This document shows, in pieces, positions 8,100 to 49,803 of a stretch of 64,000 nt of DNA. Within the stretch, counting starts at the first letter, position 1. The number at the start of each line of letters is the position of its first letter. The stretch lies in assembly GCF_949769195.1 (NCBI RefSeq), contig NZ_OX458333.1, forward strand, positions 806,001 through 870,000, given 5' to 3'. The position numbers and the translations under genes were made by a program. A model generated the notes under the pieces. The model saw nothing but the letters and a program-made list of their open reading frames with translations, did no database searches and had not been told where the DNA came from. Source of the DNA: Methylocaldum szegediense (GTDB taxonomy: Bacteria; Pseudomonadota; Gammaproteobacteria; Methylococcales; Methylococcaceae).

Positions 8100-9083
8100 A
8101 TGATTATTAAACATAAGGTTTCCAAATTTCTGGTGACGGTATTTATCACGTTTCTAGTAACTTCGACCGTGTCGGCAGGCCCCAAAAAGAAGCCATCCAA
8201 GACTCGTAGCGAGGAGGCAATACAAGCCGAATTCTTCTTTTGGGAAGTTTTTCATAATGGCTTGTACGACTTGATTCCGGACGTGCTTAATGCGTTAACA
8301 GCGGCATATCTTACAAATCCTAACGATTCGACGACCGCGGCTTATATCGGGGCTGCGCATGCCTGGCGTCTGAGCGAAAGAGCGAGAACGGATCCTATTC
8401 CAGCGACCATTACCGATCACGCGGTACTCGCGCGCAAATACTTTGAAGAAAAGGTTCGCATGGATCCTCACGACGCTCATTACATTGGCTTCTTAGGCAG
8501 CCTGATGATGTCGGAAGCCGATGTACACGGGGATGCCAAGCTGATGGACGAAGGTTATAAGACCTTGCTGAAGTCCACCAAGCTTTATCCTGAGTTTAAC
8601 TACGTTACCGCGGGGCTCACATTAACCGGTGGCATTGTGGAGTCACTGCCTTCGGCCAATTCGAAAATTTTCAAGACTGCGCTTGAATGGCAATGGAAAG
8701 CCATGGAATTGTGTTTGGGTGCAAGGATCAACCGTGCGAATCCCGACGCCTCCCCTTACATGGACCGCTTTACGACGGAAGGGCCTAAAAAAGTGTGCTG
8801 GAACACCGAGCTTGCACCGCATAAATTCGAAGGTTTCTACCTGAATATGGGCGATATGCTGGTCAAATCGGGCGACTGGCGCACGGCCCAGAAGATTTAT
8901 GCCAATGCAAGGCTTTCACCTAACTACGCAACGTGGCAGTTTGCCCCGATTTTGGAGCAGCGTATCGCGGAAGCACAGTCGAATGTTGCTCTGTTCAACA
9001 CGCCTCCTGGTCCGTCCGGACAGTTTGTTAAACCGATGATGGCTCAGTCCGCCTTTGCCTGCACGGGTTGTCATCAATATTAG
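8100..9083 (+). CDS. Exported TPR-like protein ending in a single CxxCH haem-binding motif
   Basis: The 327-residue protein begins with a Sec signal peptide (KHKVSKFLVTVFITFLVTSTVSA, cleavage near residue 26). Helical repeat-like segments follow (AYIGAAHAWRLSER, ARKYFEEKVRMDPHDAHYIGFLG, FYLNMGDMLVKSGDWRTAQKIYANARLSP) resembling TPR units. The chain ends FACTGCHQY, one canonical c-type haem attachment site within six residues of the C-terminus. It would be a periplasmic protein with a C-terminal monohaem or redox tail. No named family was recognised. A possible ribosome site AAGGATAATC precedes ATG 8100. It stands alone between transposon remnants. Confidence 0.75.
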   Translation: MIIKHKVSKFLVTVFITFLVTSTVSAGPKKKPSKTRSEEAIQAEFFFWEVFHNGLYDLIPDVLNALTAAYLTNPNDSTTAAYIGAAHAWRLSERARTDPIPATITDHAVLARKYFEEKVRMDPHDAHYIGFLGSLMMSEADVHGDAKLMDEGYKTLLKSTKLYPEFNYVTAGLTLTGGIVESLPSANSKIFKTALEWQWKAMELCLGARINRANPDASPYMDRFTTEGPKKVCWNTELAPHKFEGFYLNMGDMLVKSGDWRTAQKIYANARLSPNYATWQFAPILEQRIAEAQSNVALFNTPPGPSGQFVKPMMAQSAFACTGCHQY

Positions 9084-16839: not shown

Positions 16840-18117
16840 TTAATCAGCGTTTCCTAAAGACATTTCCTTCACTGTGTCACCGAGCCTATCGAGGAAGCTC
16901 GCGAAACCGGTATTCGCCTTTAGCCATTCGAGATAACGGTGCTTGTCCGGGACGAAGTCGGAAAGGTCGCAGTCGATGATACGGACGAATTGGCGCTCGC
17001 GCACCGCATCGCGCCAGCGGACGAACGCGGATTTCGCCTCGGGTGTGAGCCAGGCGTAAGTGACCGACAATCCGCGGTGGTCCGATTCGTCGCCGCCGAT
17101 CACTTGTACGTCGTGGGGCGCCAGATCGGGGGTAGCGAATGAGCCGTCCAGGGCCCATACCGGCGCCGGTGCGGGATAGGTGGCCCAAGCGGAAAAGTCG
17201 CTCACGCCGCCGCGCGCCGCAGCGACAATCCGCGCGTCGGCGAGCTCGCCGCTGGTCAAAACGTCGTGCGTGCGGTCCGCGGCGAAATGAGGCCGTTCGT
17301 AGGTCAGGGCGGTCGGAACCGTGTTCATATCGCCCAGCAGAATCGACGTCCGGCCCGGTTCGATGAACCGCCGCAGAAGGTCCGCCGCCTGCGCTTCCCG
17401 CCGCGCCGGATTGAAGGCTTCGAGGTGGGTGACCAGAACATCGACGGGATGGCCGAAGAATTGGATTTGAACGTGCAGCACCCCGCGCGGCTCGTTCAAG
17501 AACTTGTCCAGAATTCCGGTAGGAAAAGCCGAGGCGTAGCTGGTTTTCTGGGGTTTCCGGAGCATCCGGGCGTCCATCGAGAGCGCCGAGTGCCGAAACA
17601 GAACGGCGTTGCCGAAACGCACCTCGAGTCCGGGCACCTTGCGGCGCCAGGTTTCGCCTCGCTCCACGGTGTAAGACTGGCCGGTACGGCGCTCGAGTTC
17701 GGCCGCGATAAACTCGGCTTGATCCATCCAGCCACTGCGCCGAGAACCGAAATCCACCTCGTTGAGCGCGACCACGTCGACCGGCGTTCCGGGCGATGCC
17801 ACGGCGATCCTTTCGGCAATGCCGGCGAGATTGCGTTCGACCTCACGGCGATCGGCGTAAGCGCGCCAGCGCGGCCCGAGTCCCGAATGCAGGTTGTACG
17901 TCACGACCCGGAGCTCCGGGAGGTCGTTACGGGTTTCCAATTGCGGAAACGGCGCGGCGTGCTCCCAGCCGAACGAAGGAGCGGAGCAGAAAGCCCCAGC
18001 GTCGGGACGCCCGAGGGTGCTGGCCAACTGATATCCGCCCCAGAAATCGGTCAATGTCGTCATGGTCAAAATGCCGGAAAAGGCGGTCAATAAAGCGATT
18101 CGTAATAGTCTTAACAC
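16840..18117 (-). CDS. Endonuclease/exonuclease/phosphatase (EEP) family protein
   Basis: A 425-residue protein with a hydrophobic N-terminus (about 3-22) that could be a signal peptide or anchor. The EEP fold shows RVVTYNLHSGLG, VVALNEVDFGSRRSG (metal-binding Glu), VLVTHLEAFNP (His), LLGDMNTVP (Asp-Asn) and the final GGDESDHRGLSVTY (catalytic His). The family includes sphingomyelinases, phosphoinositide phosphatases and nucleases. Its placement directly before a phospholipase D gene hints at phospholipid or nucleotide-headgroup cleavage in the periplasm, which is inference. About 80 extra residues follow the catalytic domain (ending VKEMSLGNAD). Confidence 0.85.
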   Translation of the reverse strand: MLRLLRIALLTAFSGILTMTTLTDFWGGYQLASTLGRPDAGAFCSAPSFGWEHAAPFPQLETRNDLPELRVVTYNLHSGLGPRWRAYADRREVERNLAGIAERIAVASPGTPVDVVALNEVDFGSRRSGWMDQAEFIAAELERRTGQSYTVERGETWRRKVPGLEVRFGNAVLFRHSALSMDARMLRKPQKTSYASAFPTGILDKFLNEPRGVLHVQIQFFGHPVDVLVTHLEAFNPARREAQAADLLRRFIEPGRTSILLGDMNTVPTALTYERPHFAADRTHDVLTSGELADARIVAAARGGVSDFSAWATYPAPAPVWALDGSFATPDLAPHDVQVIGGDESDHRGLSVTYAWLTPEAKSAFVRWRDAVRERQFVRIIDCDLSDFVPDKHRYLEWLKANTGFASFLDRLGDTVKEMSLGNAD

Positions 18118-18226
18118 GTAAGCTTGGTTAATGGTGCGGGCGGATTTCCTTTCTCGGCTGTAGCGAACGGTATCGTATGAATCCCGGGAAAGCGTGATGA
18201 GCGGAAATTCGGTGGCTCATGCGGGC

Positions 18227-44553: not shown

Positions 44554-44603
44554 AAAAAATCCGGACGGCAGTGAACCTTTTCCGTATTTCCCGAAATTTA
44601 CGG
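44554..44603 (+). promoter_or_regulatory. ECF-type promoter element before the first small exported protein
   Basis: This 50-bp segment matches the one upstream of the sigma factor gene (49803-49754, minus) at 42 of 50 positions. Invariant blocks are AAAAAATCCGGACG, GTGAACCTTTTC (likely -35) and TTTCC.GAAAT.TAC (toward the -10). It lies about 60 bp before ATG 44663, as its twin lies about 53 bp before the sigma start. Such similarity between unrelated genes points to recognition by the same ECF sigma factor. Confidence 0.75.
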
Positions 44604-44662
44604 TGAAAGAAAGGACGCAAAGGTAGGGGAGGTGTTAACCCTTGAATACAAGGAGTTCGATT

Positions 44663-44956
44663 ATGAAATCCTATGCAATGGCTGTTTTGTTATCTTCGGT
44701 AATTACTGCCGGGCCGGTAATGGCCGAGAGCGAGTTCCGGGCCTTGGACAAGGTGTCCGGTGTGACCGCGATGAGCGAAGGTCGACTCGCGAGCGTCGAA
44801 GGCGGTGTTATTAAGCACGGTAGCGGTACGTGCTCCGGCGTGGGAAATGTGTGTCTCAACCTGGCCATACCGACGATCACGGCGGTGAATCTCGGGCTTT
44901 TCAGCAAAAATGCCAACCAATTCATCGTGCAGAAGACGACTCAGGTCATCAGGTAA
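44663..44956 (+). CDS. Small exported protein with double-glycine-like motif (paralogue 1)
   Basis: A 97-residue protein. The Sec signal peptide (MKSYAMAVLLSSVITAGPVMA) is followed by ESEFRALDKVSGVTAMSEGR, then LASVEGG. The last part (VIKHGSGTCSGVGNVCLNLA and onwards) has two Cys. The SEF.ALDK start and L..VEGG motif recur in the next gene. L(S/D)..(E)L..V.GG is the pattern of double-glycine leaders cleaved by C39 peptidases, but here it comes after a Sec signal, so it would face the periplasm. AAGGAG lies 7 nt before ATG 44663. Its promoter resembles that of the sigma factor. Function unknown. Confidence 0.75.
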   Translation: MKSYAMAVLLSSVITAGPVMAESEFRALDKVSGVTAMSEGRLASVEGGVIKHGSGTCSGVGNVCLNLAIPTITAVNLGLFSKNANQFIVQKTTQVIR

Positions 44957-45070
44957 CGACTAGTGCTGACCTCGTAAAGAATCCTGATCGGGGTCGGAGA
45001 AAGGGGCGGGGGAGCCGTCATGCGCGCCTCTGCCTTTTTACCTCAACTTGAAAATCTCATGGAGAGACCG

Positions 45071-45442
45071 ATGAGAACATCATTCGTATGGGGTGGCCTG
45101 CTCTCGCTCGTTGTCTCAGCTACGACCTCTGTCTATGGTCAATCCGAATTTCATGCTTTGGATAAGCTGTCTTTGCAGGAAACCCATATCGCATCGTCTC
45201 GGCTGGACGACAGCGAACTCGGTCGAGTGGAAGGCGGGCTGGAAGTCGTAAGCGTCTCGACAATTCCGGTTGATTTGACATCACAGGTCGTTATGCAAGC
45301 GACATTGCTCGAAAGCACCGCACAAGCCTCCAGCAGTAGTGGGACCGAAAATCGGGTCGATCAGACGACCTCTCTGATTCAAGTTTGCGGGCCTCCACCC
45401 TGTAGCCAAAGCTTGAGTCAAACGACTTATTCGGGTTTTTAG
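45071..45442 (+). CDS. Small exported protein with double-glycine-like motif (paralogue 2)
   Basis: A 123-residue protein related to the previous one. Signal peptide MRTSFVWGGLLSLVVSATTS plus VYG, then QSEFHALDKLSLQETHIASS, RLDDSELGRVEGG (a textbook L..SEL..V.GG), and a Ser/Thr-rich tail with CGPPPC near its end. Shared with paralogue 1: SEF.ALDK, the VEGG, and a Cys pair in the tail. Start 45071 follows GGAGAG; an upstream ATG at 45059 lacks a site. The 115-bp gap to paralogue 1 and absence of its own copy of the 50-bp element suggest cotranscription. Confidence 0.75.
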   Translation: MRTSFVWGGLLSLVVSATTSVYGQSEFHALDKLSLQETHIASSRLDDSELGRVEGGLEVVSVSTIPVDLTSQVVMQATLLESTAQASSSSGTENRVDQTTSLIQVCGPPPCSQSLSQTTYSGF

Positions 45443-45945
45443 GAAAGAGGGATAGCGATAATCGTCCATCGGTGTACGGAGTGAGGGGTATGGATTGGCT
45501 CAGCGATCCGTACACCGGTCGTCAATCAAGACGGTTCCCTCGCTTTTTCGCCGAACGGCAGACAGCATTTTTGATCTTCTGATTCCGTCCGGCACGTATG
45601 GGGCCGCCGTGATCATTTCAGAGCGGGTTGAACTTTCAGATATTCCTACTTATTCCAAGTAGAAGTCACGACTGACCGCCGTTATCTTTGAATTGGATCA
45701 CGAACCCATCGGCTCCCGCCTTCGCATAGCCAGCGGATAGGTCTGTGAGCACCAGATCGGTCACCGACTCGGGAGGAGTTTCCTATGACTAGCCGACGCT
45801 CAACCCTCGAGATACGTTCTGCTCAGCTTACGTGCGCCGTCGCGGTGTGCACTGTCTGAATACACGCGTCTCGAACTCGATCTCTCCTGATCGTTCGCGG
45901 AGAGAATCCCGTCAAATCCCTTTGCCAAAACCGATTAGATTCTCG
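45443..45945. other. 500-bp gap between the small exported proteins and the TorF gene
   Basis: No gene recognised. It contains GTGTACGGAGTGAGGG...GATCCGTACAC (45473-45513), an imperfect inverted pair. The TorF promoter and leader must be here, but no match to the 50-bp ECF element was seen. Confidence 0.3.
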
Positions 45946-46665
45946 ATGAATCGTAGCTTTTCGTGGCTGTTGCTCGCCTCGCTCAGCGTTCCGGCGTCTG
46001 CCGAATTCAAGGGATCCGCAACTTTTGCAACGGATTATGTTTACCGGGGCTATACGAAGAGCAGGAATAATCCTGTCGGCCTGGGAAATTTGGAATATGA
46101 GCACGAACTCGGCCTGTATGCCGGCTTCTGGGTGGCGCCGGTTAGTTTCGACGATGAACACGGCGACGATCGAGCCCGTGTGGAAATCAATCCGTATTTG
46201 GGCTGGGCGACCAAGTTTGCCAAGAACTGGAAGCTTGATCTCGCGGCTAGCCGGTATCTTTACGATGGTAATGTGTTCGGCCGGGACGCGGACTACAACG
46301 AATTCTACGGTTCGTTCCATTACCGCGATCTTCTGAGCGCTCGGGTGGCGTTTGCCTACGATACCTATAACCGTGATGCCAATACCTCGGCCTATGAGCT
46401 GATTGGCCGCTATAGCCCGTTGGATCGGCTGCAACTATCCGCGGGCGTGGGTTTTCATCAGGCTGGCGAACTGGCGCACTACGACTACTTTTTCTGGAAT
46501 GCCGGCGTGACCTGGTATGTGAATCGGTACATTTCGGTCGATTTGCGCTATGTGGATACGAAGTTGCCGTATGAAGAGCGTCACGAGGACGAGCCCGAGA
46601 ACGGATCGGTGTATCTTCGGCCGCTAGACAATCGCTTTCTGTTTTCCCTCTCTGTCGCCTTCTAG
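45946..46665 (+). CDS. TorF-family outer-membrane beta-barrel protein
   Basis: A 239-residue protein with signal peptide (MNRSFSWLLLASLSVPASA) and the TorF opening GSATFATDYVYRGYTKSRNNP, followed by alternating amphipathic strands (LGLYAGFWVAPVSFDDEHG, LDLAASRYLYDGNVFG, ISVDLRYVDTKLP) and a terminal aromatic F. This fits a porin-like barrel of 8-12 strands. Start 45946 is at the signal peptide; the open frame begins earlier at 45832. It follows the small exported proteins and precedes the anti-sigma gene on the same strand. Substrate unknown. Confidence 0.85.
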   Translation: MNRSFSWLLLASLSVPASAEFKGSATFATDYVYRGYTKSRNNPVGLGNLEYEHELGLYAGFWVAPVSFDDEHGDDRARVEINPYLGWATKFAKNWKLDLAASRYLYDGNVFGRDADYNEFYGSFHYRDLLSARVAFAYDTYNRDANTSAYELIGRYSPLDRLQLSAGVGFHQAGELAHYDYFFWNAGVTWYVNRYISVDLRYVDTKLPYEERHEDEPENGSVYLRPLDNRFLFSLSVAF

Positions 46666-46697
46666 TGAACCTTTGGCCTTGCCGCGGAATAAATAGA
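46663..46697 (+). promoter_or_regulatory. Weak third copy of the ECF-type promoter motif
   Basis: GTGAACCTTT overlaps the torF stop codon and is followed 12 bases later by GGAAT, resembling the -35 half of the elements at 44554 and 49803. It would lie about 300 bp before the anti-sigma start. The remaining positions do not match well, so this is only a candidate. Confidence 0.25.
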
Positions 46698-46992
46698 GTA
46701 GAACCGCGGATTGACAAGTCCCCTGGTATGCGATTCGTCGCTTACGAGCCGAATGGCCGAACGGCCAAAAAAGCAAGGTCGACCTTGTCCGTGTCCAATG
46801 GTTCAGTAACGACGGCAGGTCGAGTTTCCCGTGAAGGAAGCTCCTGAAATGCAGGCGTATGGGTTAGACCTGTTCGATAGCGGTGTAGCGTTCGAGAAGC
46901 GCTGAACTTGTAATTCATATTTGCAAATAGCCCGAGCTCTTCTTGGATGACGGGATGCCCGAGTTGGAAGCTCTTATTGTTGGAGAAGTGCG
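46666..46992. other. 327-bp gap upstream of the anti-sigma gene
   Basis: No gene. CCGCGGAATAAAT...GAACCGCGG (46682-46711) is a GC-rich inverted pair with a long AT loop. A GAGAAGTGCG ribosome site ends the gap. Confidence 0.3.
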
Positions 46993-47700
46993 ATGAATCC
47001 GAGTAAGCCATCCCCGCCAGACCGTGAGCACGACGATGTGCTTTCGCTTTTGCCCTGGCATATCGCCGGAACCCTAGAGAGCGATGAACAGGCACGCGTT
47101 ACGGCACATTTGAGCCGTTGTCCGATTTGCCGACGTGAACGGGCGAAGCTTTGCGCGCTTTCGGAACGGATCTCTCGCATACCCAGTCCGAATCAGGATC
47201 CAAAGGCCCGCTATTCTCGCCTGCTTGCCACCATTCGGCAGCGTGAACGATCCCAATCGGCGGCGTTGCATTTAGGTCGCTTCGGCCGACTTCGAACCCG
47301 GCTCCCGCGTTTTCCGGTCATTGCGAGTAAGCCTCCGCTCCGTATCGCTTTGGTGGTGGCGATTTTGCTGTTGGTCGTACCCTTGAGCTGGCACCGGTGG
47401 GATCAATTGACGGAGCCCCGGTTTCGGACTTTGGCCGATTCTGCTTCGACCGCGGCCTGGAATCAGGGGGATTTGCGCTTGGTGGTCGAACCCGGGCTCA
47501 GCGCCGAACGCATTGATGCGCTCTTGAAAGCCGTCGACGGGAGCCGAGTCGACACGCGCGGTTCGGCGGACGTTTATACGATCAGACTTGCAGACGGCAT
47601 AGACAAGAATGCGAAGATCGAAACAGCCTTAGCCTACCTTCGGCGCCAACCGGGCGTATTGTTGGCTGAGCCGGCTACCGGACCGCCCGCGGTGCCATGA
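46993..47700 (+). CDS. Zinc-finger anti-sigma factor with a subtilisin-propeptide-like periplasmic domain
   Basis: A 235-residue single-pass protein. The cytoplasmic part (1-~110) has the ZAS motif H39-x3-C43-x2-C46 (AHLSRCPICRRE) typical of ECF anti-sigma factors. A membrane segment follows (LRIALVVAILLLVVPLSW, about 116-133). The periplasmic end (about 160-228: LRLVVEPGLSAERIDALLKA ... YTIRLADGIDKNAKIETALA, YLRRQPGVLLAEP) has the beta-alpha-beta-beta-alpha-beta rhythm and final V..AEP of subtilase propeptides (I9/fervidolysin-like). The next gene, overlapping 4 nt, is a subtilase. It could be held or cut by that protease, releasing the sigma factor at 49701-49075; this is inference. Confidence 0.8.
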   Translation: MNPSKPSPPDREHDDVLSLLPWHIAGTLESDEQARVTAHLSRCPICRRERAKLCALSERISRIPSPNQDPKARYSRLLATIRQRERSQSAALHLGRFGRLRTRLPRFPVIASKPPLRIALVVAILLLVVPLSWHRWDQLTEPRFRTLADSASTAAWNQGDLRLVVEPGLSAERIDALLKAVDGSRVDTRGSADVYTIRLADGIDKNAKIETALAYLRRQPGVLLAEPATGPPAVP

Positions 47701-49004
47701 GCTTCGGCTTGACCGCTTTGGCCTTGGCGCTCTTGTTGCAACTGGCCGGATGCGCGACAGACCTCGACGTTCCTAGCATCGATCCAGCGCCGGACCCGTC
47801 GATCGAGGAGCGGCGCATCCTGGTGACCTTCACCGATTCGAGCATCGGACGCAAGGTACCCGGCAACATTCTGGATCGCTATCGCGCACATGGCCGTTAC
47901 CTGGGTTCTGCCTGGAGCACTCGCGTCGCGGCAGACCTGGCGGAACAGTACGGGCTAAAGCTGGTCGCGGAATGGCCGGTTACCGTCTTGAGAGTGGTGT
48001 GCGTGGTGTATGAAATTCCTACAGATCAAATCCCGGTCGACATGATGAATACCATCGCGCAGGATCACCGGGTCGAATCCGTGCAGTTTATGCGGACCTT
48101 TCAGGCTTTAGTCGATGATACGTCGGCTTCCCTCGGCGGCGATCCTTACTTTCGATTGCAAAAAAATCTCCAGCGCATGCGCATCGAGACGGCTCACCGT
48201 CTGGCGACCGGAAGAGGCGTCCGCATCGCGCTGGTCGACACCGGCGTGGACGACGCCCACCCCGATCTCCAAGGCCAAATCGCTGTGTCGAAAAATCTGG
48301 CATCGTCGAATCACGACAAACCGACCGATGATGTCCACGGGACGGCGGTCGCCGGCATCGTCGCCGCTCGCAGTGGAAACGGAATCGGCATTGCCGGAAT
48401 TGCGCCCGGTGCCAAGATCTACGCGCTCAAAGCGTGTTGGCCGGAGCACCCCGGTTCAGTTTCTGCGCTCTGCAACAGTTTTACGCTCTTGGCGGCGCTT
48501 AATGAGGCTGTGCGTCTTGGCATCCCCATCGTCAATCTGAGCTTGACCGGGGCTGACGATCCTCTGGTCGGAAGGCTTCTTCGGGCAGCGATCGATCAGG
48601 GTATCCTCGTGGTCGCCGCGGATGCCAGTGAAAACGGCTCAAACCCGGGTTTTCCCGCCAATCAGACCGGCGTCATTGCGGTTCGAACAGTCCAGACGGA
48701 TCACAAGCCGAAAGCGACCGCCGATGATGGGATCGTTGCTCCGGGCACCGATATTCTCACGACACTGCCGTATGGGAGATACGACTTCGTGTCCGGCAGT
48801 TCTTTCGCCGCTCCCCATGTCACAGGCGTATTGGCACTGATGCGACAACTCAAGCCCAGCTTGACCGCGCCCGAGGCCGTAAAGCTCCTGCACGCATCGG
48901 TTGTGAGCTCTACGCAAGCTCAGGATCCTTTAAACCGGGTCATCGATGCTTGCCTTGCGCTCGCGCGATTGCTCGGTCTCCCTGATTGCGGGAAGCCTTC
49001 GTAG
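47697..49004 (+). CDS. Lipoprotein subtilisin-family (S8) serine protease
   Basis: A 435-residue S8 protease with a lipoprotein signal (LLLQLAGC, Cys 19, Ala at +2, so likely outer membrane). Its own propeptide-like region is about residues 38-130 (ILVTFTD ... VYEIPTDQIPVDMMNTIAQD, HRVESVQFMRTF). The catalytic triad is visible: D181 (IALVDTGVDDAHPD), H214 (DDVHGTAVAGIVA) and S379 (SGSSFAAPHVTGVLALM). The oxyanion Asn region is unusual (VVAADASENGSNPGFPA rather than AAGN). Two Cys (KACWPE, ALCNSF) may form a disulphide. It overlaps the anti-sigma gene by 4 nt (ATGA). Likely targets are the anti-sigma factor or the small VEGG proteins. Confidence 0.85.
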   Translation: MSFGLTALALALLLQLAGCATDLDVPSIDPAPDPSIEERRILVTFTDSSIGRKVPGNILDRYRAHGRYLGSAWSTRVAADLAEQYGLKLVAEWPVTVLRVVCVVYEIPTDQIPVDMMNTIAQDHRVESVQFMRTFQALVDDTSASLGGDPYFRLQKNLQRMRIETAHRLATGRGVRIALVDTGVDDAHPDLQGQIAVSKNLASSNHDKPTDDVHGTAVAGIVAARSGNGIGIAGIAPGAKIYALKACWPEHPGSVSALCNSFTLLAALNEAVRLGIPIVNLSLTGADDPLVGRLLRAAIDQGILVVAADASENGSNPGFPANQTGVIAVRTVQTDHKPKATADDGIVAPGTDILTTLPYGRYDFVSGSSFAAPHVTGVLALMRQLKPSLTAPEAVKLLHASVVSSTQAQDPLNRVIDACLALARLLGLPDCGKPS

Positions 49005-49074
49005 CTTTTTTCGTGCTCGCGCACGACCGCTTCATGGCGATATGGAGAGACTTCCTCCGCGCAAGCGCTCGGCG

Positions 49075-49701
49075 TCATGACATATCCACTCCGGCAGGCT
49101 CCGGCGTCAGTTCGCGAAATAAGGTCTGAAGTTTCTTGCGCGCGTGAAACATCCGTGTTTTCACCGTATTTTCCGGGCAGTCGAGAATGGCAGCGATCTC
49201 TTGATAGCGAAGCCCTTGGCCAAAGGTCAATTCGATAACGGCGCGTTGATCCTGCGGGAGTGACTCCAATGCCACCGAGAGGAGATCCTCGCCTTCCACC
49301 TGCCGGGCAGGTGACGCTTTGCTATCCGCCAATTCCTCCCCGAATTCGTCTATAGGCACGGCATGGGCGGATCGGGCCTGCTTCGCCGAGACTTTAAGTG
49401 CCTTGCGATAAGCAATACCGAAAATCCAAGTCGATACCTTACAGGTGTAATCAAAGGTCTCCGGCTTTTCCCAAACGACGAGCATCGTTTCATTGATCAC
49501 ATCCTCTACCATATCGAGCTGTCGCGTCACCTGAAAAACAAACCGGGACAAGCGCCGGTAAAAGCTCGAATACAGCGTCTCGAAAGCACCTATGTCGCGT
49601 GCCTGGATGCCTGTCATCAGTTTGCGATCTCGATGATCATCGATGCATGAGGCGGTTTGTCCATCAGACAGGCTTATCGTCGGATCGACAGTCATATGCA
49701 T
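49075..49701 (-). CDS. ECF RNA polymerase sigma factor
   Basis: A 208-residue ECF sigma factor, convergent with the protease gene. Sigma-2 (about 30-100) has FETLYSSFYRRLSRFVFQVT, VEDVINETMLVVWEKPETF and STWIFGIAYRKAL. Sigma-4 (about 145-195) has LPQDQRAVIELTFGQGLRYQEIAAILDCPENTVKTRMFHARKKL. It would direct polymerase to promoters like that at 49803-49754 upstream of itself (autoregulation) and 44554-44603. The zinc-finger anti-sigma gene nearby is its likely partner. ATG 49695 or 49615 are alternative starts; the ribosome site is weak. Confidence 0.88.
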   Translation of the reverse strand: MHMTVDPTISLSDGQTASCIDDHRDRKLMTGIQARDIGAFETLYSSFYRRLSRFVFQVTRQLDMVEDVINETMLVVWEKPETFDYTCKVSTWIFGIAYRKALKVSAKQARSAHAVPIDEFGEELADSKASPARQVEGEDLLSVALESLPQDQRAVIELTFGQGLRYQEIAAILDCPENTVKTRMFHARKKLQTLFRELTPEPAGVDMS

Positions 49702-49753
49702 AGAATCGGTGCCATGACGAGTTCTTTCAAAGCAGGAATGGGCAGGGTCTAAT

Positions 49754-49803
49754 CTGTAGATTTCCGGAAACGCAGAAAAGGTTCACGGTCGTCCGGATTT
49801 TTT
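49754..49803 (-). promoter_or_regulatory. ECF-type autoregulatory promoter of the sigma gene
   Basis: Minus-strand sequence matching 44554-44603 at 42 of 50 positions: AAAAAATCCGGACG, then GTGAACCTTTTC, then TTTCC.GAAAT.TAC. It ends about 53 bp before the sigma start codon, a distance similar to its twin. ECF sigma genes commonly drive their own promoter, so this pair defines the likely recognition sequence. Confidence 0.75.

Follow-up and report, generated by a model that had tools for sequence, protein, structure and literature searches.

In a 64,000-nucleotide stretch of the Methylocaldum szegediense genome (contig NZ_OX458333.1, positions 806,001 to 870,000; hereafter the window, in whose numbering features are given), two copies of a 50-bp element stand before a gene for an extracytoplasmic function (ECF) sigma factor and before a pair of genes for small exported proteins (SEP1 and SEP2). 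We consider it likely that these copies contain promoters for the ECF sigma factor, which is itself encoded within the segment that they enclose, that they keep a split operon under one control, and that a subtilisin-type prodomain on the anti-sigma factor provides a sensing step. For the promoters and the local regulon taken by themselves, our confidence is high.

The copies occupy 44554–44603 on the forward strand and 49803–49754 on the reverse strand, inverted around a 5.2-kb segment. A recount bears out the 42 of 50 identical positions given in a preliminary description of this DNA, and its distances of about 53 and 60 bp to the start codons also fit (49754 to 49701 is 53; 44603 to 44663 is 60). 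The next-best 50-mer in the window agrees with either copy at just 27 of 50 positions. The core pattern of the element occurs twice in the window and in none of 100 shuffles, and it occurs twice in the whole 4.9-Mb genome with up to three mismatches (reversed control, 0). A looser consensus finds 12 places in the genome with up to three mismatches (control, 6) and is matched without mismatch only at the element's two sites; its next-best place, at 752082 with two mismatches, falls within a 401-codon reading frame. The upstream half of the element (AAAAAATCC.GACG..GTGAACC, up to three mismatches) was sought in four Methylocaldum genomes and found at two places here, at two in Methylocaldum sp. 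14B, and nowhere else. A dispersed repeat is thereby ruled out, as the core pattern and the upstream half are confined in this genome to the same two places.

The sigma factor (208 amino acids; 49075–49701, reverse strand; PF08281 and PF04542, with TIGR02937 over its cut-off) has the composition of an ECF factor, with the models for sigma-70 regions 2 and 4 over their cut-offs and no region 3 model among the matches listed at E 1. A protein search with it (E 1e-30) gave 18 matches in 16 of 61 genomes, this one included. The 17 other loci, all from the same order and picked by sigma match alone, each have both a subtilase gene and an anti-sigma gene adjacent to the sigma gene. Outside the genus there are 16 such loci, and in 15 of them TGAAC precedes the sigma gene; it is present in all 14 relatives' loci examined first (from −250 to +60 relative to the sigma frame; expectation, 0.31 per region), to which L056 and L057 were added later.

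From these comparisons, the predicted promoter proper is a stretch of about 30 bp consisting of TGAACC, 18 bp, and AT..A. The promoter assigned to SEP1–SEP2 (P1, 44572–44602, forward strand) has TGAACC at 44572 and the −10 element AATTTAC at 44595–44601, while in that of the sigma gene itself (P3, 49755–49785, reverse strand) TGAACC starts at 49785; each lies inside its copy of the element. We scored the window with a matrix of 35 positions, built from the sites upstream of the sigma gene in 13 of the 14 relatives' loci, with one near-duplicate dropped and no Methylocaldum included. P1 is the top match (29.7 bits; 27.7 in a gapped scan) and P3 the second (24.3 bits; 27.5 in the gapped scan), and the third-ranked fixed-spacer score is 9.9 bits. 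The L056 site, which is outside the training set, scores 22.3 bits and is the best in its own locus.

Within family f1 (37 genomes), the 12 genomes in which the sigma factor has a match hold 29 consensus matches with up to two mismatches, and the other 25 hold 3 (binomial P 1e-11; 6e-10 once four sigma promoters are removed). The pattern behind this statistic was derived from these same sigma promoters, and the genomes are related and were not matched for size or base composition. One of the three matches in genomes lacking the sigma factor (G018) precedes, by eye, a zf-HC2 anti-sigma-like gene. With up to three mismatches the signal is mixed (19 matches against 1 in the control for G006, yet 7 against 16 for G036), and 13–15-bit matches in relatives, which are near chance (0.55 matches of at least 13 bits per shuffled 64 kb), were not relied on. 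Together, the relatives-only matrix, the concentration in family f1, and the uniqueness in the genome support the earlier proposal of an autoregulated ECF-type promoter common to the sigma gene and the small exported proteins; as judged from sequence, the conserved −35 and −10 elements of the sigma gene's own promoter recur before its predicted targets.

A third likely sigma-type promoter (P2, 46666–46695, forward strand), with a spacer one base shorter, lies directly 3′ of the stop codon of a TorF gene and upstream of the anti-sigma and subtilase genes. It ranks third in the window in a matrix scan that tolerates spacers one base longer or shorter (24.0 bits, spacer −1; the next match has 15.9). 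The P2 pattern has an exact match both here and in Methylocaldum sp. 14B, the two genomes agree at 52 of the 54 positions that begin with the TorF stop, and the place of P2 after TorF is that of the sigma promoter in relatives with TorF upstream. Weaker candidates before TorF (TGAAC at 45629, score −3.8) and nearer the anti-sigma gene (TGAAC at 46903, score 0.4) were discarded. The sigma gene, the SEP genes, and the anti-sigma and subtilase genes therefore each likely have a site for one sigma factor, and the regulon is predicted to be local in this genome. We infer that RNA polymerase carrying this sigma factor uses these sites. The preliminary description had joined the sigma factor, its anti-sigma factor, the subtilase, and the small proteins in one regulon; shared sigma sites agree with this, with the amendment that the anti-sigma factor and subtilase likely have a site of their own (46666, forward strand).

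Several results weigh against these promoter assignments. In L057 the sigma gene lacks a preceding TGAAC, and leave-one-out over the 13 loci placed the sigma site first in just 8, second in 3, and third in 1, leaving that of L045 unrecovered. The best scores of 200 shuffled windows have a mean of 13.0 bits and a maximum of 25.5 bits, above the 24.3 bits of P3; the 24.0 bits of P2 are barely above the maximum of 100 shuffles (23.9). In Methylocaldum sp. 14B, the promoter of SEP1 reaches just 18.4 bits, its spacer being one base too short. A lone score in the twenties is not decisive; position and the double match are.

Much of the 50-bp identity belongs to a duplicated segment whose copies have been homogenised in each of two Methylocaldum genomes. 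The earlier statement that the two upstream regions are otherwise different is correct for this genome but fails in Methylocaldum sp. 14B, where an uninterrupted run of 70 identical bases, with TGAACC at its end, is common to the two regions, as is a block identical at 60 of 66 positions. One genome has CCGGACG in both copies and the other has CCTGACG in both, and from the −10 element onward each gene has kept its own leader across both genomes, which suggests old copies with homogenised upstream parts. Because of this duplication and homogenisation, the identity outside TGAACC and the −10 element is for the most part not motif.

The same features could be expected of an inverted repeat, such as a recombination or phase-inversion site or the remnant of a mobile element, that happens to stand before two genes. 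The copies are inverted around the 5.2-kb segment, and homogenised copies with long identical tracts, as in Methylocaldum sp. 14B, are what recombination or gene conversion would leave. We nevertheless regard this as improbable: the pair occupies just two places in the genome, its core precedes the sigma gene in relatives, and the leader kept by each gene in both genomes suggests old copies that stay with their genes. Moreover, a flip would leave a promoter before both genes, and hence no on/off switch.

The promoter reading is also compatible with a simple history of the locus. In 16 of the 17 other loci, the sigma, anti-sigma, and subtilase genes follow one another in this order on a single strand, and 11 of the 16 also have TorF just before them in the same orientation. 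Both Methylocaldum genomes have the sigma gene reversed and at the far end of the locus. Most simply, the sigma gene would have moved away while its old promoter stayed before the anti-sigma gene, and a promoter copy would have come to stand before the SEP pair, leaving a split operon under one control.

The anti-sigma factor (46993–47700, forward strand) contains a zinc-finger-like zf-HC2 domain (PF13490, 30.7 bits in the window protein, over the cut-off; 16 of 16 members at E ≤0.1) with invariant H39, C43, and C46, one predicted membrane helix (residues ~114–139, hydrophobic by eye), and a periplasmic subtilisin-prodomain-like domain (residues ~158–228). PF22148 (Fervidolysin prodomain) is found in 11 of the 16 members at E ≤0.1, the best at 7.9e-06. 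An AlphaFold 2 model of the protein (mean predicted local distance difference test score, pLDDT, 76.9; whole-chain predicted template modelling score 0.38) includes a β-α-β-β-α-β domain at residues ~160–227 (block pLDDT 78–94), the arrangement of a pro-subtilisin. Its top Foldseek match in the PDB is 3cnq_P, the prodomain of a prosubtilisin complex (template modelling score 0.69 on the target, probability 1.00, E 0.013), and the prodomains of subtilisin E, PC1/3, and BPN′ rank fourth to sixth. The periplasmic domain is very probably a subtilisin-type prodomain.

The partner gene, which overlaps the anti-sigma stop codon (ATGA), encodes an S8 subtilase (47697–49004, forward strand; PF00082, 2.6e-34) that is a probable lipoprotein (LAGC). 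D181, H214, and S369 are invariant in 20 sequences, the N-terminal domain is itself prodomain-like, and the best PDB matches of the subtilase include unprocessed pro-subtilisins. As the lipobox pattern is present in only 9 of the 20 subtilases, that of the window among them, a lipid anchor is not general. An apparent anti-sigma–subtilase fusion in L045 proved to be a mechanical open reading frame in the subtilase frame.

A search at the level of the class gave 27 of 369 genomes, and prodomain-bearing anti-sigma genes occur in further families of the class. We compared 27 distinct distant loci (28 entries, L123 repeating L141; this genome and one contig-edge fragment left out), of which 21 have the prodomain. 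A subtilase stands alongside in 15 of these 21 versus none of the 6 loci with zf-HC2 only (Fisher P 0.003; 15 of 20 versus 0 of 5, P 0.005, without the contig-end loci L138 and L146), a contrast that is supportive rather than independent proof, as subtilase-linked members served to train the local profile and the loci compared are related to one another. In L134, L136, and L137, all from one family, the prodomain-bearing anti-sigma factor is kept with no subtilase nearby, and carA/carB-like neighbours (by eye) form a shared setting. A caspase-like gene (by eye; L147:7111–8478) follows the sigma/anti-sigma pair of L147 in the subtilase's position, which suggests protease exchange.

In the proposed mechanism, P3 would drive the sigma gene (autoregulation), P1 would drive SEP1–SEP2 and possibly read on into TorF, and P2 would drive the anti-sigma and subtilase genes. 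The anti-sigma factor would hold the sigma factor through its zf-HC2 domain and extend the prodomain into the periplasm. The active site of a subtilase is the natural partner of such a prodomain. The anti-sigma factor would thus sense the subtilase encoded next to it in one of two ways: by gauging free protease, or by serving as a substrate, with its cleavage setting off the release of the sigma factor. We lean towards the prodomain engaging this particular subtilase. Counting against the assignment and its role, the window anti-sigma factor scores 20.0 bits with PF22148, below the cut-off of 21; the Foldseek E-values are weak (best 0.013, none below 0.001), with a ribosome chain and an MgtC domain at ranks 2 and 3 and ACT domains also listed; hhalign gave no sign that the anti-sigma domain and the N-terminal domain of the subtilase are related in sequence (probability 14); and six distant prodomain loci, one of them at a contig end, have no subtilase seen nearby.

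Two versions of the sensing step deserve consideration. In one, which we advance tentatively at somewhat below an even chance, bound protease shields the anti-sigma factor (off), and titration of the protease by exported substrates exposes it to general envelope proteases (on). Prodomains bind mature subtilases tightly and are usually inhibitors; the subtilase here has a predicted prodomain of its own, so that a second need not be a folding aid, and several predicted targets in relatives look exported, although the two prodomain-like domains show no kinship in sequence. Alternatively, the subtilase may be the site-1 protease, docking on the anti-sigma prodomain and cutting the anti-sigma factor to start regulated proteolysis, with positive feedback as the outcome. 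The overlap of the two genes and the invariant catalytic triad are consistent with this, as is the caspase-like gene of L147, a replacement to be expected if any co-encoded protease serves. The inhibitory habit of prodomains speaks against it, however, and this prodomain ends ~8 residues after a conserved AEP, where the active site would be blocked by a product-like tail with little in it to cut; we find a site-1 role possible but rather doubtful.

The nearest kind of known system is presumably that of autoregulated ECF sigma/zf-HC2 anti-sigma pairs (RpoE/RseA, SigW/RsiW, ChrR type). The present locus resembles these in its sigma regions 2 and 4, in the GAAC-type −35 element before the sigma factor's own gene, and in the zinc-finger-like anti-sigma domain, with ChrR and RsiW among the matched solved structures. 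It differs in that the ectodomain is a predicted subtilisin-type prodomain, the partner gene encodes a pro-subtilase, and the sigma gene is split from the operon. In the ECF54 group, a subtilase is likewise encoded beside the ECF sigma factor, which is described as working without an anti-sigma factor (PMC8999054). The zf-HC2 anti-sigma factor of our locus, with its prodomain-like domain, sets it apart, and we do not assign it to ECF54.

Within the reach of a literature search that left out most subscription journals, no paper on a prodomain-bearing anti-sigma factor was found. We see an even chance that a broad gammaproteobacterial ECF class uses a subtilisin prodomain as periplasmic anti-sigma sensor, with the co-encoded protease as both regulon product and signal. 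If this hypothesis is correct, a protease gauge would be wired to the transcription of exported proteins. The analysis provides a computationally checked sigma–promoter pair in a methanotroph and the testable idea of an envelope sigma factor that reads out protease activity; the motif could be used for regulon prediction in genomes with a sigma match and in the further families of the class. It also suggests that a split operon can stay under one regulator via promoter copies.

In relatives, strong sites precede several genes for exported-looking products. L045 has a 17.4-bit site before a cupredoxin gene (PF00127) and a 19.0-bit site before the gene of a TIGR03118 protein, whose mechanical frame begins at the site, so that the true start must be further in. 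TIGR03118 proteins are found beside the module in some relatives; neither this genome nor Methylocaldum sp. 14B gave a match. Other strong sites lie before a CHRD protein gene in L061 and before several large proteins with signal-like N-termini (by eye). Genome G006 (L183–L186), with its 19 consensus sites, has several before very large exported-looking proteins, and its regulon is perhaps expanded. Strong sites with no clear downstream gene occur in L190, in L183 at 15033, and in L051 at 9946. The last (forward strand, 25.5 bits) faces away from TorF toward the 3′ end of a neighbouring gene, with no listed frame after it on that strand, and may possibly give rise to an RNA or antisense transcript.

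SEP1 (97 amino acids; 44663–44956, forward strand) has, by eye, a Sec-type signal followed by an L..VEGG double-glycine motif, as seen in the family alignment and search, and matches no Pfam family at E 1. SEP2 (123 amino acids; 45071–45442, forward strand) belongs to the same family, has the VEGG motif, and matches no Pfam family above cut-off. The SEP family is present in 4 of 101 genomes, namely the four of the genus Methylocaldum, with 28 family matches. We rejected SEP paralogs elsewhere as regulon members: 27 of the 28 were examined and, besides SEP1 of the window, none of the other 26 has a site above 5.1 (fixed spacer, 160 bases upstream). The short-spacer pattern, which that scan would miss, has no exact match outside the locus in the four Methylocaldum genomes. 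A second SEP1–SEP2 pair in Methylocaldum sp. 14B (L102) is also without a sigma promoter, as far as scanned. The window pair therefore probably acquired its sigma control once it had become part of the locus.

Other SEP members are clustered, and four clusters (L094, L097, L098, L100) include an exported FapD-like C39 peptidase (L097:10589–11293 was scanned, the others were assigned by similarity). L097 also encodes a PF13557 barrel protein with a likely coiled coil at its start (by eye; 16925–18178), and L100 has, near an intact paralog, a shortened SEP copy whose frame is broken (8132–8299). SEPs, with a Sec signal and VEGG, are candidate substrates of a periplasmic double-glycine peptidase; of the three C39 matches in the M. 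szegediense genome, none is in the window. The peptidase and the barrel recall the Fap system of Pseudomonas, although its Fap proteins are described as lacking canonical C39 sequences (PMC5557850), unlike the VEGG-bearing SEPs. With a FapD equivalog score of 103.7 bits (cut-off, 330), the peptidase is only FapD-like, and we did not assign these clusters to the Fap amyloid system.

Between the SEP pair and P2 lies the TorF/Gcw_chp putative porin gene (45946–46665, forward strand, with ATG 45946 as the assumed start; PF09694, E 7.9e-20; TIGR02001, 90.3 bits with a cut-off of 47.15). The sigma gene may start instead at 49695, as in Methylocaldum sp. 14B (by eye). Just before it, a seven-codon ATG...TGA frame (49715–49692, reverse strand) overlaps this likely start by ATGA, a layout kept in Methylocaldum sp. 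14B (by eye), and may couple translation.

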